Of a stretch of DNA of 64,000 nucleotides, positions 10,344-19,756 are shown in pieces. Within the stretch, counting starts at the first letter, position 1; the number at the start of each line of letters is the position of its first letter. The translations under genes and the position numbers were made by a program. The stretch is taken from the NCBI GenBank assembly GCA_947473305.1, contig CANJCB010000002.1:1-64000 (forward strand), written 5' to 3'. Below the pieces are notes generated by a model that saw only the letters and a program-made list of their open reading frames with translations, searched no databases and was not told the DNA's origin. This DNA comes from Rhodospirillales bacterium. Lineage in GTDB: Bacteria > Pseudomonadota > Alphaproteobacteria > ATCC43930 > CGMCC-115725.

Positions 10344-10395
10344 GGGATTTAGTATCCCATTGACGGCGGATTTTTTACGAGCATCATGCGCGGCG

Positions 10396-10556
10396 ATGGT
10401 TCCCTTCGGGGATCAAAAGGGAACGTGGTGAGGGATCGGATCCCGAAACCGCGGCTGCCCCCGCAACTGTGAGCGGCGAGCCGAGCGTCACTGGCCACTG
10501 GGAAACCGGGAAGGCGACGCTTCCGGCAGCGACCCGCAAGCCAGGAGACCTGCCAT
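10396..10556 (+). ncRNA. Cobalamin (AdoCbl) riboswitch
   Basis: The 334-bp gap before btuB holds a class I cobalamin riboswitch. Recognisable blocks in order are GGTTCCC with its partner AAAAGGGAAC, the GCTGCCCCCGCAACTGTGA core, CACTGGGAAACCGGGAAGG, and the B12 box AGCCAGGAGACCTGCC (10539-10554). It senses adenosylcobalamin and should lower expression of btuB and following genes when B12 is plentiful. A possible -35 TTGACG lies at 10360, but no good -10 is visible. Confidence 0.95.
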
Positions 10557-10635
10557 CGCACGTGGTCACGCGCGAACACATTGGGCGGGGTGCACCGATG
10601 GGGACTGGAAACCGGCTCTGAACTGAGCGGCGACT

Positions 10636-14100: not shown

Positions 14101-14157
14101 GCCAAAAAGCGGACCAAGGGTTGGCGCTTCCCCACCCTGCGGTTACTTTATAGGCTC

Positions 14158-16428
14158 ATGACCCTGCGGCGCCTCCTCCCCATTCTCCTGCTGTTCGCGG
14201 CTTTTGCGGCACCCCTGCGGGCGACGCTCGCCGCGGACCCCGCCCCTGCGGCCGGAGCCGGGGCCGGGGCCGTATCCATCGACGAGCTTCAGAAACTGGT
14301 CGATACGCTGCAGGACGACCAGGCGCGCGCCCATCTGGTGGACCAGCTTCGCGCCCTCATCGCCGTCCAGCGCGGGCAGCCGCAGCAGCAAGCCGAGCCC
14401 GATGTTCCGGATGCGGTCGGCCTCCTCCACGACTTCTCCACCCAGATCAATGCAATCAGCAGCGAGATCCTGGCCGCGGTGGCGGTGATCGTCGATGCAC
14501 CACGCCTTTTCGGCTGGATCCAGGGTCAGCTTTTCGATCCGGCGGGGCGCGAACGCTGGATCGAGATCGCCACCAATCTCGGGATCACCTTCGGCGCGGC
14601 CTTTCTCGCCGAATGGGTCGTCCGCCTTCTCCTGCGGCGACCGCGCCGTGCCTTGGCGGCACGGACCGGAAACCATTGGGCGGTGCGGATCCTTCTGATC
14701 CTGACCCGCGCCGCGCTCGATATCCTGCCGTTGCTGGCTTTCGCCTTCTGCGCCTATGCCATCCTGCCGACGATCCATGCGAGGCGGACGACCCAGCGGG
14801 TGGCGGAGATCCTGGCGAGCTCGGTGGTCACCGCCCGGGTCATCCTTGCGGTCGCGCGCGCTCTTCTGGTCCCGGAAGGCTCGGGCGCGGTCCAGCTCGG
14901 CATGACGGAGGAAACGCGGAACTATCTCTATATCTGGATCCGCCGCTTCACCGCCTGGGCGGTCTATGGCTACGGCCTCGCCAGCGCCTCCTGGTGGCTC
15001 GGCGTGCCGGGCGGGATCTATGCGCTGCTGCTCAAAGGCACCGCGCTCGCGCTGACCGTGCTCGCCGTCATTTTCATCCTCCAGAACCGCCTGGCGGTCG
15101 CGGCGCGGATCCGGTGCTTCCGTCTCGATCCCGACGAGGTCGAGACCGTCGCCGAAAGCAGCGCGAAGGCGGACCCCAGCGGCTGGCAGACATTGCGGGA
15201 GCGGATCGCGGATGTCTGGCATGTCCTCGCCATCGTCTATGTGGTGGGCGTCTTCGGGGTTTATGTCCTGCAGGTCGACGGCGGCTTCATCTTCGTGTTG
15301 CGCGCCACCCTCATCAGCATTTTCGTGCTGGCCATCGCAAGGCTGCTCTCGCGCCTGGTGCTGGGCATCAGCCATCGCGGCTTCGCCATCGGCGAGGACC
15401 TGAAGGGACGGTTCCCGACTCTGGAGGCGCGGGCCAACCGCTATCTTCCGGCCTTGAGCGTGATCGTCTCGGTTGGGATCTATTTTTTCGCCATGATCGC
15501 GCTGCTCCAGGCCTGGGGCGTCGGCGCCTTTGCCTGGTTCGATTCCGATTTCGGCCGGCGCGTCGCGGGAGGCCTTGTCTCGATCGGTGCGGTTCTCCTG
15601 GGCGCGCTCATCGTCTGGGAACTTTTCAGCTCGCTGATCGAACGCTATCTCTCCGGGATCGACAGCCATGGGCGGCGCATCACGCGCAGCGCCCGCGCCC
15701 GCACCCTCCTGCCCTTGCTGCGGACCACCATGCTGATCCTCATCGTGGTCATGGTCACGCTGATCACCCTGGCGGAGGTCGGGGTCAATATCGCGCCGCT
15801 GCTCGCGGGCGCCGGGGTTGTCGGCCTTGCCATCGGCTTCGGATCCCAGGCCCTGGTGAAGGACGTCATCACCGGCCTCTTCATCCTGATCGAGGACACG
15901 CTCGCGGTGGGCGACGTGGTGGATGTGGGCGGCGGCCACAGCGGCACGGTCGAGGCCCTCTCGATCCGGTCGATCCGGCTCCGGGACATGGCCGGCACGG
16001 TCCATTCCGTGCCCTTCAGCGCCGTTTCCTATGTGAACAACATGAGCCGGGACTACGCCTATGCGGTCTCGGACATCGGGGTCCAACTCGCCCAGGATCC
16101 CGACGAGGTCATCGAGATCCTGAAAGAGGTCAGCACGGGTTTGGCGGAAGACCCGGCCTGGAAGCCCTATATCATCGGCAGCCCGGAGATCATCGGCGTC
16201 GACAAGTTCACCAACGAGGCGACGATCATCCGCCTGCGCTTCAAGACCGTCGCCATGAAGCAATGGACGGTCGGCCGCGAATTCAACCGCCGCATCAAGA
16301 AGGCCTTCAACGAAAAGGGCATCCTGATGCCCGCGGCCAATCAGACCGCCTATCTGAACAATGCGGAAGCGACGACCACGTCCCAGGCGATCCTCAACGA
16401 AACCCTCACGGCAAAGCCGGCTCCCTAA
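14158..16428 (+). CDS. MscS-family mechanosensitive channel, large form
   Basis: A 756-residue inner-membrane protein with a signal peptide (to about residue 27), a periplasmic helical region, roughly ten TM segments, and a C-terminal MscS domain. The pore-lining region reads GAGVVGLAIGFGSQALVKD, followed by the beta-domain motif DTLAVGDVVDVGGGHSGTVE. Large MscS proteins release solutes under hypo-osmotic shock. The gene starts 57 bp after tonB, and its 3' end overlaps recX tail-to-tail by 4 bp. It is probably not part of the B12 unit, although no terminator is visible between them. Confidence 0.9.
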   Translation: MTLRRLLPILLLFAAFAAPLRATLAADPAPAAGAGAGAVSIDELQKLVDTLQDDQARAHLVDQLRALIAVQRGQPQQQAEPDVPDAVGLLHDFSTQINAISSEILAAVAVIVDAPRLFGWIQGQLFDPAGRERWIEIATNLGITFGAAFLAEWVVRLLLRRPRRALAARTGNHWAVRILLILTRAALDILPLLAFAFCAYAILPTIHARRTTQRVAEILASSVVTARVILAVARALLVPEGSGAVQLGMTEETRNYLYIWIRRFTAWAVYGYGLASASWWLGVPGGIYALLLKGTALALTVLAVIFILQNRLAVAARIRCFRLDPDEVETVAESSAKADPSGWQTLRERIADVWHVLAIVYVVGVFGVYVLQVDGGFIFVLRATLISIFVLAIARLLSRLVLGISHRGFAIGEDLKGRFPTLEARANRYLPALSVIVSVGIYFFAMIALLQAWGVGAFAWFDSDFGRRVAGGLVSIGAVLLGALIVWELFSSLIERYLSGIDSHGRRITRSARARTLLPLLRTTMLILIVVMVTLITLAEVGVNIAPLLAGAGVVGLAIGFGSQALVKDVITGLFILIEDTLAVGDVVDVGGGHSGTVEALSIRSIRLRDMAGTVHSVPFSAVSYVNNMSRDYAYAVSDIGVQLAQDPDEVIEILKEVSTGLAEDPAWKPYIIGSPEIIGVDKFTNEATIIRLRFKTVAMKQWTVGREFNRRIKKAFNEKGILMPAANQTAYLNNAEATTTSQAILNETLTAKPAP

Positions 16429-16985
16429 TCCTCCTCCTCCCGCAGTAGCGCCTCGAGCGCCTCGGGGTCCTCGGCATCCAATACCCGATGCGCCACCTGG
16501 GAGCCGAAACCGGCCCGGGCGAAAGTTCCCATGTCCTTGCGGCGGTTGTCCTCGCGGTCCTTGATCCGATAGGGACCGAGCCGCCGCCGCCGGGCAAGCG
16601 CGCAGGCCGCGGCCAGTTCGCTGCCGCCAGGCTCCTCGCCGAGATCGTCGAGCGCCTTGGCGACCTGCTCCCCGTTAAGCCCCTTCTGGGCGAGGCGTCC
16701 CCGGATGCCGACACGGGAGACGCCGCGCCGGTGAAGGCTGGTGGCCTTGGCCGCCGCGAAACCCTCGTCGTCGAGGAGGCCGGCGGCGAGATAGCGCGCG
16801 ATCAGCGCCTCGACCTGGGCGGTGCCCTCGGCCGGGTCCTCCTCGTGGAAGGCGGCCGACACCTGGACCTTTCGCAACAGCACCCGGCGCAGATTGGCGC
16901 TCGAGCTCGCGAAACGCTGCAGATAATGCAAGGCCGACCGCTCCAGTCGTTCCGCCGTGATCCGCTTCGGCTCCGTTCGCGCCAT
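16425..16985 (-). CDS. recX: RecX-family regulatory protein
   Basis: A 186-residue helical protein of the RecX family, which modulates RecA filaments. It shows the three-helix repeats with FASSSANLRRVLLRKV, YLAAGLLDDEGFAAAKATS and GVSRVGIRGRLAQKGL. ATG 16985 is preceded by AGGGGAG at good spacing. The frame is open upstream to 17261, but that extension covers the promoter and leader region on the other strand. recA is not adjacent. It is divergent from the leader-peptide transcript. Confidence 0.88.
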   Translation of the reverse strand: MARTEPKRITAERLERSALHYLQRFASSSANLRRVLLRKVQVSAAFHEEDPAEGTAQVEALIARYLAAGLLDDEGFAAAKATSLHRRGVSRVGIRGRLAQKGLNGEQVAKALDDLGEEPGGSELAAACALARRRRLGPYRIKDREDNRRKDMGTFARAGFGSQVAHRVLDAEDPEALEALLREEED

Positions 16986-17033
16986 TCGGCTCCCCTTCTC
17001 GCCCAGAGTGCCCCAACGGAAGGGTTTCCGCCA

Positions 17034-17063
17034 TTGACAAGAAGGCCGGCCGCTCCCTATGGT
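17034..17063 (+). promoter_or_regulatory. Promoter of the leader-peptide transcript
   Basis: A consensus -35 TTGACA (17034-17039) is followed after 18 bp by TATGGT (17058-17063). Initiation 7 bases past the -10 would start the RNA at or next to A17070, the first base of the leader ATG. The transcript is therefore predicted to be leaderless, as known for alphaproteobacterial trp leaders. Confidence 0.6.
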
Positions 17064-17069
17064 CCGGCC

Positions 17070-17150
17070 ATGAGCGAATTTCGTTTCAGCGGGATGTGGT
17101 TTAGCTATTGGAGCACCGGTCGGGGCCCCAAGGTTCAACGCATGCGCTGA
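17070..17150 (+). CDS. Aromatic-codon leader peptide
   Basis: A 26-codon reading frame beginning at the predicted transcription start, with no upstream ribosome binding site. Aromatic codons cluster in its first half: Phe at 4, 6 and 11, Trp at 10 and 14, Tyr at 13, with a tandem Met-Trp-Phe at 9-11. It ends in TGA 25 bp before a GC-rich terminator. The composition and the competing stems that follow identify it as a probable attenuator leader for aromatic amino acid (most likely Trp or Phe) starvation. The downstream gene encodes an acetyltransferase, not a known biosynthetic enzyme. Confidence 0.6.
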   Translation: MSEFRFSGMWFSYWSTGRGPKVQRMR

Positions 17151-17210
17151 GATCAGCGTAACGTCAGAAACAGAGGGCCCCGCCGGTGACGGTCGGGGCC
17201 TTCGCTTTTC
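17114..17210 (+). terminator. Attenuator: competing antiterminator and terminator stems
   Basis: Segment 2 CACCGGTCGGGGCCC (17114-17128) can pair with segment 3 GGGCCCCGCCGGTG (17175-17188) over 14 bp with one bulged T. Segment 3 can instead pair with segment 4 GGTCGGGGCC (17191-17200) to make a 9-bp terminator stem followed by TTCGCTTTTC. A ribosome stalled at leader codon 10 would leave segment 2 free for the antiterminator, while one that keeps translating would mask it. This is the classic attenuator logic. Confidence 0.65.
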
Positions 17211-17260
17211 TGAAGCTCCCTCGTCCCGGCGCCCCTCAGAGCAAAGAGGAGAATGCGCCA

Positions 17261-17767
17261 ATGCCTATCGTTCTTGGTCCCATCCGAAAACTCGCCCCCG
17301 CCGAGGTTGTGAGCTTCCGCGACATCCGCCTGGAGGCGCTGAGCCGCCATCCGGAGGCTTTCTGCGCGTCCTACAAGACGGCGGCCGCGGAACCCTGCGC
17401 CGCAACCGCCCAACGCCTGGCGGCGGGCGGCGTCTGGGGAGCCTTCATGGAAGACACCCTGGTCGGCATCGCCCAGTTCGGTGGGAGAGCCAGCGACCAT
17501 CAGCGCCATCGCGGGGAACTTTCGGGCGTCTATCTGCGGAACTGCGCGCGGGGCACGGGCCTCGCCGACCGGCTGGTCGAGACCGTACTCGATTTCGCGA
17601 AGGACCGGGTCGAATGCGTCGAGCTCAAGGTCGACACCACCAACGAGCCGGCGATCCGCCTCTATGGTCGCTGCGGCTTCCAGACCTATGGCACCGAGCC
17701 CCGCGCCTTCAAGGTCGAGGGCGGATACCGCGACGCCTTCCTGATGGCGAAGTTCCTGGGGGAGTAG
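17261..17767 (+). CDS. GNAT-family N-acetyltransferase downstream of attenuator
   Basis: A 168-residue acetyltransferase with a GNAT core: ELSGVYLRNCARGTGLADRL for the acetyl-CoA loop, then VDTTNEPAIRLYGRCGFQTYG and a C-terminal segment ending AFLMAKFLGE. The substrate is unknown. GAGGAG lies about 10 bases before ATG 17261; the frame extends upstream to 17186 into the terminator hairpin and is unsupported. The leader and attenuator directly upstream imply induction when an aromatic aminoacyl-tRNA runs short. That would fit a role in aromatic amino acid metabolism or stress, but this is inference. Confidence 0.88.
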   Translation: MPIVLGPIRKLAPAEVVSFRDIRLEALSRHPEAFCASYKTAAAEPCAATAQRLAAGGVWGAFMEDTLVGIAQFGGRASDHQRHRGELSGVYLRNCARGTGLADRLVETVLDFAKDRVECVELKVDTTNEPAIRLYGRCGFQTYGTEPRAFKVEGGYRDAFLMAKFLGE

Positions 17768-17834: not shown

Positions 17835-18638
17835 TTGAAAACCTTGTCTCCGCCGGGCGTGCGCCAGTTCGGCGCCGTCAACTGGCTCGGCTTCTGGACG
17901 CTCTATCTGCGCGAGGTGCGACGCTTCCTGAAGGTCTTCACCCAGACGGTGGCGGCCCCCGTGGTCACGACGCTGCTCTATCTGGGCGTCTTCATGCTGG
18001 CCATCGGCGGGGCGCAGCGCAGCGCGGGCGGCGTGCCCTATACGGCCTTCCTGGCGCCCGGCCTCGTCATGATGGCGATGATGCAGAACGCCTTCGCCAA
18101 TACCTCCTCCTCGATCATGATCGCCAAGGTCCAGGGCACAATCGTCGATGTGCTGATGCCGCCTCTCTCGGCGACGGAACTGGCGCTCGCCATCGTGCTG
18201 GGCGGGATCACGCGGGGCGCGGTCGTCGGGATCGCCGTGGCGCTCGCCATCTGGCTGTTCGAGCCGCTGCAGATCGCGCATCCGCTGCTGGTGCTCTTCT
18301 ATGGTCTTGCCGCCTGCATGCTCCTGTCGTTGCTCGGCATGATCGCGGGCGTCTGGGCGGTGAAGTTCGACCATATGTCGGCGGTGACGAATTTCATCAT
18401 CATGCCGCTCTCCTTCCTCTCCGGGACCTTCTATTCCGTGGACCGGCTGCCGGAAGGCTGGCGCTTCGTGGCCCATGGCAACCCGTTCTTCTATCTCATC
18501 GACGGGTTCCGGGCGGGCTTCATCGGCCAGCCGGAAAGCTCGCTGGAGCTGGGCATCTGCGTGGTCGTGGCCGTCAACGCGGTGCTCCTGATCGTCTGCC
18601 ACCAGATGTTCCAGCGGGGCTACCGGCTCAAGGCCTGA
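17835..18638 (+). CDS. ABC-2 type transporter permease
   Basis: A 267-residue permease of the ABC-2 family with about six TM segments and the family signature around LSFLSGTFYSVDRLPEGWRF. Such proteins export polysaccharides, lipids or drugs together with a separate ATPase. No ATPase gene lies next to it, so the partner must be elsewhere. The start is TTG at 17835, supported by AAGGAAA about 7 bases upstream; no ATG gives a plausible N-terminus. It follows the GNAT gene by 67 bp and precedes the dioxygenase by 44 bp. Confidence 0.87.
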   Translation: MKTLSPPGVRQFGAVNWLGFWTLYLREVRRFLKVFTQTVAAPVVTTLLYLGVFMLAIGGAQRSAGGVPYTAFLAPGLVMMAMMQNAFANTSSSIMIAKVQGTIVDVLMPPLSATELALAIVLGGITRGAVVGIAVALAIWLFEPLQIAHPLLVLFYGLAACMLLSLLGMIAGVWAVKFDHMSAVTNFIIMPLSFLSGTFYSVDRLPEGWRFVAHGNPFFYLIDGFRAGFIGQPESSLELGICVVVAVNAVLLIVCHQMFQRGYRLKA

Positions 18639-18682: not shown

Positions 18683-19756
18683 ATGTCGCTTTTCCCAGAC
18701 GTTCTTCCGATGCCGCCCGGTCTCCTCGAAGGCCGCGCCGCCTGGTATGGGCCGGACCTCGAACAACGGCGCGACTGGATCTACGAGTTCGACGCCCGGG
18801 ACAAGGCCGAGATCGACGACGCGGTGCGCGCCGTCAGGGCGGCGAATGTTCCCTTCGGCGAAATCTCGCCCGCCACCTTTCCCCTGCCGACTTTGGGCGC
18901 GAAGCTCGCCGCTTTCCTGGAGGAAGTGCTGCACGGCCGGGGCTTCGTGCTGATCAGAGGCTTTCCCACCGACCGCTATACCTTGGAGGAAACCGCCGCC
19001 GGCTATCTCGGCATCGGCTCCTATTTCGGGCCCTTCCGCTCGCAGAACGCCAAGGGCCATCTCCTAGGCCACGTCAAGGACCTGGGATACGACATCAAGG
19101 ATCCGACGACCCGCTATTACCAGACGACGCGACAGCTCGATTACCACACCGACAGCGCGGACTTGGTCGGTCTCATCTGCCTGAAGCCCTCGAAATCGGG
19201 GGGCGAGAGCCGGATCGTCAGCTCGGTCACGATGTATAACGAGATCCTGCGGCGACGGCCCGACCTGCTGCCCGAGCTTTTCCACCCCTTCGCCACGGAC
19301 CGGCGCGGCGAGATCCCGGCCGGCATGCTACCCTGGTTCGACGCCCCCGTGTTCCAGTGGTTCGAGGGCGAGCTGACGACGATCTATTCCGGGCAATACA
19401 TCCGCTCGGCCCAGGTGAATTTCCCCGAGCTTCCGCGCCTCACCGCCAAGGAGATCGAGGCGCTCGATTACTTCGACGCGCTGTCGGATGCGCCGGACCT
19501 GCGGCTCCAGATGGAGTTCCGGCCGGGGGACATCCAGCTCATCAACAACCACACGACGCTCCACTCCCGCACCGATTTCGAGAATTGGCCGGAGCCGGAA
19601 CGCCACCGGCATCTCTTGCGGCTGTGGATCGCGCCCTTAAACGCGCGGCCCTTGCCGGAATGGTTCGCGCCCCGTTACGGATCGACGGTCCAGGGTCAGC
19701 GCGGCGGGATCGTCACCGCGGAGACCACCCTGAAATTCGTCCTGGAAGCCGAGTGA
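18683..19756 (+). CDS. TauD/TfdA-family Fe(II)/2-oxoglutarate dioxygenase
   Basis: A 357-residue non-haem iron dioxygenase. The iron-binding facial triad is visible as H155-x-D157 in YHTDSAD and a distal His in NNHTTLHSRTDF, and RHLLRLW provides the Arg that binds 2-oxoglutarate. The N-terminal 80 residues precede the GRGFVLIRGFPTD start of the fold. Length and motif spacing fit the TauD superfamily (gamma-butyrobetaine or taurine type), but the substrate is unknown. It is probably cotranscribed with the permease gene upstream; a promoter for argD follows. Confidence 0.9.
   Translation: MSLFPDVLPMPPGLLEGRAAWYGPDLEQRRDWIYEFDARDKAEIDDAVRAVRAANVPFGEISPATFPLPTLGAKLAAFLEEVLHGRGFVLIRGFPTDRYTLEETAAGYLGIGSYFGPFRSQNAKGHLLGHVKDLGYDIKDPTTRYYQTTRQLDYHTDSADLVGLICLKPSKSGGESRIVSSVTMYNEILRRRPDLLPELFHPFATDRRGEIPAGMLPWFDAPVFQWFEGELTTIYSGQYIRSAQVNFPELPRLTAKEIEALDYFDALSDAPDLRLQMEFRPGDIQLINNHTTLHSRTDFENWPEPERHRHLLRLWIAPLNARPLPEWFAPRYGSTVQGQRGGIVTAETTLKFVLEAE

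Follow-up and report, generated by a model that had tools for sequence, protein, structure and literature searches.

A candidate leaderless attenuator with aromatic control codons ahead of a GNAT acetyltransferase gene in a Rhodospirillales bacterium

RESULTS

Organization of the locus

The window, a contiguous stretch of 64,000 nucleotides from a Rhodospirillales genome, carries a GNAT acetyltransferase gene between recX and an ABC-2 permease gene. The region upstream of the acetyltransferase gene contains a promoter, a short open frame, and a set of predicted RNA stems. The features of the locus are as follows:

16425-16986, minus strand: recX, the divergent neighbor that marks the insertion site (start at 16986 placed by comparison with relatives)
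17034-17063, plus strand: sigma-70-type promoter, TTGACA-18-TATGGT (sequence and promoter scan; expected start at ~17070)
17070-17150, plus strand: putatively leaderless leader frame of 26 aa, MSEFRFSGMWFSYWSTGRGPKVQRMR, with computed control codons Trp10 (17097-17099) and Phe11 (17100-17102)
17084-17152, plus strand: predicted 1:2 protector stem, -27.7 kcal/mol, with an inner hairpin at 17108-17131 (computed folding)
17114-17128, plus strand: segment 2, predicted 5' arm of the antiterminator (folding, shuffles, repeat)
17173-17203, plus strand: predicted 3:4 terminator hairpin, -27.7 kcal/mol, and, behind it, a U-rich tail with interruptions (folding; tail from sequence)
17175-17188, plus strand: segment 3, common to antiterminator and terminator (folding, shuffles)
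17261-17767, plus strand: GNAT acetyltransferase gene, 168 aa, with a good ribosome-binding site (RBS), AGGAG, at 17247-17251 (profile match, alignment)
17835-18638, plus strand: ABC-2 permease gene, which adjoins recX in relatives; possibly cotranscribed
18683-19756, plus strand: TauD-family dioxygenase gene; possibly cotranscribed

Between 16425 and 18638, no partner ATPase gene was seen beside the permease gene. Elsewhere in the window, positions 10381-10571 (plus strand) hold a cobalamin riboswitch, a member of a well-known family that was matched over its full length with 117.6 bits. A 706-codon open frame on the minus strand (14143-16263) runs antisense to a 756-codon frame (14158-16428), and by its composition it looks like a spurious shadow frame.

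Promoter and leader frame

The promoter consists of a -35 element, TTGACA (17034-17039), an 18-base spacer, and a -10 element, TATGGT (17058-17063); it is the sole promoter-like match between 16000 and 18500 (0.3 in shuffles). The leader ATG at 17070 lies 7 bases past the -10 element, a spacing that fits a leaderless mRNA, and we infer that transcription starts at the A of this ATG. In the whole genome, TTGACA, TANNNT, and ATG occur together at leaderless spacing four times, compared with 0 in the reversed control.

A sequence-only reading of this DNA had claimed such a promoter ahead of a 26-codon frame with an aromatic-rich first half, and both are present. The aromatic residues are F4, F6, W10, F11, Y13, and W14. 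At the composition of the neighboring genes, the probability of at least six aromatic residues in codons 2 to 14 is 4e-4, and this frame is the only one (1/1,360) among the ATG frames of the window staying open for 14 codons that has at least six aromatics in its first 14. Phe4 and Phe11 are both encoded by TTT, which accounts for 6 of the 103 Phe codons of the neighboring genes. Attenuator sensitivity is said to depend on which of the synonymous control codons are chosen (PMC1183508). As a separate matter, an origin of the leader peptide as a remnant of the permease N terminus (WFSYWS versus WLGFWT) was rejected: shuffled peptides score equally in 6 to 8% of cases.

Predicted RNA structures

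Computed folding of the leader gives three alternative stems (1:2, 2:3, and 3:4), not two. The 1:2 protector sequesters segment 2 and has the control codons on its 5' side, and the 2:3 and 3:4 stems are mutually exclusive. An antiterminator pairing 17114-17128 with 17175-17188, as previously claimed, was recovered in the computed structures; the duplex formed by segment 3 with the leader reaches -33.4 kcal/mol. The terminator stem, first placed at 17176-17200, was likewise reproduced with a computed extent of 17173-17203, and an A/U outer stem (17164-17170/17207-17213) lengthens it. Among 2,000 shuffled leaders, 0 equaled the pairing of segment 3; among 7,988 overlapping windows taken elsewhere, 11 did. 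A perfect 11-base repeat, CGGTCGGGGCC, occurs in both segment 2 and segment 4 and is the sole direct repeat of at least 11 bases within 911 bases. The U-tract of the terminator is broken up (TTCGCTTTTC) and weak; because of this interruption, a simple terminator scan omits the 3:4 hairpin from its list. Rfam models, including T-box and riboswitches, gave no family match to the leader.

Modeling of ribosome stalling

To model the switch, a ribosome footprint was masked at each codon in turn, using a crude mask, equilibrium folding, and six footprints. Without a ribosome, the terminator is the computed stable state. With a footprint of -15/+14, the antiterminator replaces it only when codon 9, 10, or 11 is in the A site. 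All six footprints place Trp10 inside the switching window, and four of the six do so for Phe11; equilibrium folding thereby favors the antiterminator upon a stall at the control codons and not elsewhere. As modeled, Trp10 (with Phe11) reads as the control position, and the leader as Trp or Trp/Phe sensing. Only two of the six aromatic codons lie in the computed window, and 6 of the 24 three-codon windows of the frame hold two aromatic codons. Phe4, Phe6, Tyr13, and Trp14 would come into play only under kinetic control of folding.

As long as segment 4 has yet to be transcribed, a ribosome at the start or the stop codon also gives the antiterminator as the computed minimum; therefore, the switch depends on folding kinetics, and in the cell the folding order must decide. 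The same is true of attenuators of the trp/his kind generally. Since 11 of 400 shuffled leaders (~3%) also switch at some stall position, the model result alone is moderate evidence; combined with the promoter and the aromatic frame, it is strong evidence.

The GNAT gene product

The acetyltransferase matches PF00583 with 57.6 bits (gathering score, 20.7). Its homologues form a loose group with 35 to 49% identity and with members in the same family, in Azospirillum, and elsewhere; a tree of these proteins gave no resolved position for the one in the window. No function-specific family scored above its cut-off. The closest solved structures are generic GNATs (E ~1e-6), single-sequence structure prediction gave a pLDDT of 36, and a scan of genome contigs with the protein found no relative. 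At 17498-17515, the group motif K-x-R-H-K-G appears as H-Q-R-H-R-G; the loss of these conserved lysines may alter a substrate or CoA contact. On Azospirillum plasmids, homologous genes are preceded directly by a VapC toxin gene, or by a pseudouridine synthase gene and another GNAT gene.

The weak family matches include drug acetyltransferases, which bears on a different kind of sensor. A drug-bound ribosome could arrest near codon 9 or 10, through the drug or the nascent chain, and switch on a drug-modifying GNAT in the manner of erm-, mef-, and cat-type leaders. In the computed window, the ribosome has made 9 residues and has codon 10 in the A site, and known drug-arrest peptides, such as ErmCL, are in the same length range. 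Yet the matches to resistance families are far below the cut-offs, so no resistance role is indicated; no known arrest motif was recognized in the leader peptide, and six aromatic codons would be superfluous for such a device. Drug-inducible transcription attenuators are documented (PMC4335068). We consider drug sensing unlikely at this locus.

Distribution of the leader

Searching the leader DNA against 146 relatives returned mainly generic GC-rich hairpins, and a search of plasmids gave no match. The leader peptide gave only weak matches in 385 genomes of the class, none of them with a plausible leader frame. A degenerate pattern, FRFxxxWFxYW (Ser allowed for Arg), was found in 98 stretches among ~85,000 species; the 80 of these stretches that were retrieved as loci are unrelated frames, mostly from AT-rich genomes. 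Upstream of the GNAT homologues, the aromatic leader is absent at more than 30 loci, and the idea that orthologues of the gene carry it was rejected. For the Azospirillum, Caballeronia, and Sinorhizobium plasmid copies, this absence was judged from annotated neighbors only; on Azospirillum and Sinorhizobium replicons, other genes closely precede the copies.

The sequence-only reading had stated that a lack of conservation of the peptide or stems in relatives would refute it, and such a lack is what we found in the genomes searched. Absence is to be expected to some degree, since these genomes included none of the same genus. Leaders diverge fast.

With the predicted leaderless start and terminator, one would expect a short translatable RNA to be set free, as happens with rnTrpL (PMC7298713, PMC10117765). 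The locus could thus be a dual-function small RNA or small-protein gene acting in trans like rnTrpL/peTrpL, with the acetyltransferase gene as a mere neighbor. However, neither a target nor conservation was found, and the GNAT gene, 110 bases downstream, has an RBS of its own and no other evident promoter. We regard a trans-acting product as highly improbable, and the comparison with the RNA and peptide of Sinorhizobium is an analogy alone.

Genomic neighborhood and the probable insertion site

Most relatives have recX and the permease gene as divergent direct neighbors, with ~30 to 300 bases between the matched stretches. This gap contains neither the leader nor the GNAT gene in the relatives; therefore, both probably represent a lineage-specific insertion, gained together or stepwise. 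The recX/permease pair is widely kept, and the permease promoter behind recX appears short in the relatives and sometimes near-leaderless. The leader promoter occupies the site of the relatives' permease promoter, and several local alignments register on the -10 region. Similarity to the best relative reached a score of 32, attained by ~2% of control segments, and the sum over all relatives was not significant (14%); the resemblance in position and -10 region is suggestive only.

This resemblance, together with the downstream, same-strand position of the permease and dioxygenase genes, would be in line with a broader proposal, namely, that aromatic starvation controls the GNAT, permease, and dioxygenase genes along with further genes outside biosynthesis. 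No strong terminator was seen behind the GNAT gene. Nevertheless, the relatives transcribe the permease gene without the leader, and a weak TTGCAT-18-TAGAAG site, read from the sequence, lies ahead of it in the window. At three other loci of the source genome, no further aromatic leader was found: trpE comes immediately after another open frame, and the DAHP synthase and prephenate dehydratase genes are preceded by no leader with clustered aromatic codons. The regulon, which the sequence-only reading had put forward, is not supported by these results and appears decidedly unlikely.

An insertion could also have left no live regulation at all. In that case, the promoter, aromatic frame, and terminator would be relics or a chance outcome of the arrival of the GNAT gene, which would be expressed by constitutive readthrough or from an internal promoter. 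Confinement to a single lineage without conservation is consistent with this scenario, as are the shuffled leaders that give a switch-like result. Against it, the promoter, the aromatic frame, and the 1:2, 2:3, and 3:4 stems are jointly improbable, and the whole leader folds at z = -4.0. We find the absence of live regulation rather unlikely.

DISCUSSION

A probable attenuator of the trp/his type

The anatomy of the leader is complete, with its parts in the right order and at the right spacing, beginning with a short frame rich in control codons right behind the promoter. Weighing against an attenuator are the lack of conservation in the genomes searched and a target enzyme without a known link to aromatic amino acids. 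On balance, the region ahead of the GNAT gene is probably a ribosome-mediated transcription attenuator of the trp/his type, and as modeled it qualifies as one on anatomy. It would most likely sense the charging of Trp-tRNA (with Phe-tRNA) and control at least the GNAT gene. The original proposal of a leaderless attenuator at this site is supported by the anatomy and the modeling; the aromatic-starvation regulon is not supported.

In the mechanism that we envisage, transcription would begin at the A of the leader ATG. When Trp-tRNA, and probably also Phe-tRNA, is charged, the ribosome would pass codons 10 to 14 and either cover segment 2 or let the 1:2 stem close; the 3:4 terminator would then form, and a short RNA of ~140 bases would presumably be released. 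In silico, when the ribosome pauses with Trp10 or Phe11 in the A site, it covers the 5' arm of the 1:2 stem, and segment 2 stays unpaired. Free segment 2 would pair with segment 3, allowing RNA polymerase to read into the GNAT gene.

As for the role of the enzyme, it is a mere guess that its function might be to detoxify a compound that inhibits aromatic tRNA charging; we make this guess because acetylating aromatic amino acids when they are scarce would make little sense. A more elaborate scenario, to which we give little credence, is that a leaderless sensor of Trp/Phe-tRNA charging and the GNAT gene were inserted between the ancestral permease promoter and its genes. The acetyltransferase, perhaps with the permease and dioxygenase, would then be made when aromatic charging fails, for example, as self-protection against an aminoacyl-tRNA-synthetase inhibitor.

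If the attenuator works as modeled, a textbook device can arise anew before a gene outside amino acid biosynthesis and can be built by insertion at a defined site, and a leaderless frame can carry a mixed aromatic code. For the orphan GNAT, the device would also provide a testable physiological setting (a failure to charge Trp or Phe) that cannot be had from the sequence alone. The attenuator by itself reveals no regulon.

Comparison with known systems

What the locus offers is a known device before an unusual target gene in one lineage, with no regulon demonstrated. No attenuator on a GNAT gene was found in the part of the literature covered. Leaderless attenuators are already known (PMC7298713, PMC10117765). 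The rnTrpL/peTrpL leader of Sinorhizobium meliloti trpE(G) has a leaderless frame at the 5' end, as predicted here, along with Trp codons and an exclusive antiterminator and terminator, and a short RNA is expected (PMC7298713). In the window, the promoter spacing fits the leaderless trait, and the 5' end is predicted from the sequence. In contrast to trpL, which has 14 codons with consecutive Trp codons and lies ahead of trpE, the leader described here has 26 codons, with two nonadjacent Trp codons interspersed among Phe and Tyr codons, and lies ahead of a GNAT gene. It is not a trpL, because it lacks both the consecutive Trp codons and trpE; the trpE gene of the source genome has no trpL-like leader.

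The enterobacterial trp, his, and pheA leaders are led by a Shine-Dalgarno sequence and control the pathway of the amino acid that they sense. Attenuators of trp or phe biosynthesis act on the synthesis of the amino acid that they sense, or on its charging, whereas here the target is a GNAT gene. The likeness to the enterobacterial attenuators lies in segments 1 to 4, in the control codons within segment 1, and in a stall that frees segment 2 (PMC1183508). The drug-inducible mef/mel and erm leaders also permit expression of a resistance gene through a ribosome stall in a short frame (PMC4335068); their stall needs a drug and a nascent chain, whereas the frame in the window is rich in codons for amino acids of a single chemical class. 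The mgtP attenuator of Salmonella mgtCBR differs in sensing proline, in its long leader mRNA with tandem attenuators, and in having been shown experimentally, whereas the present switch is computed; as the leader described here would, it places genes outside an amino acid's own pathway under the control of codons for that amino acid (PMC3641672).
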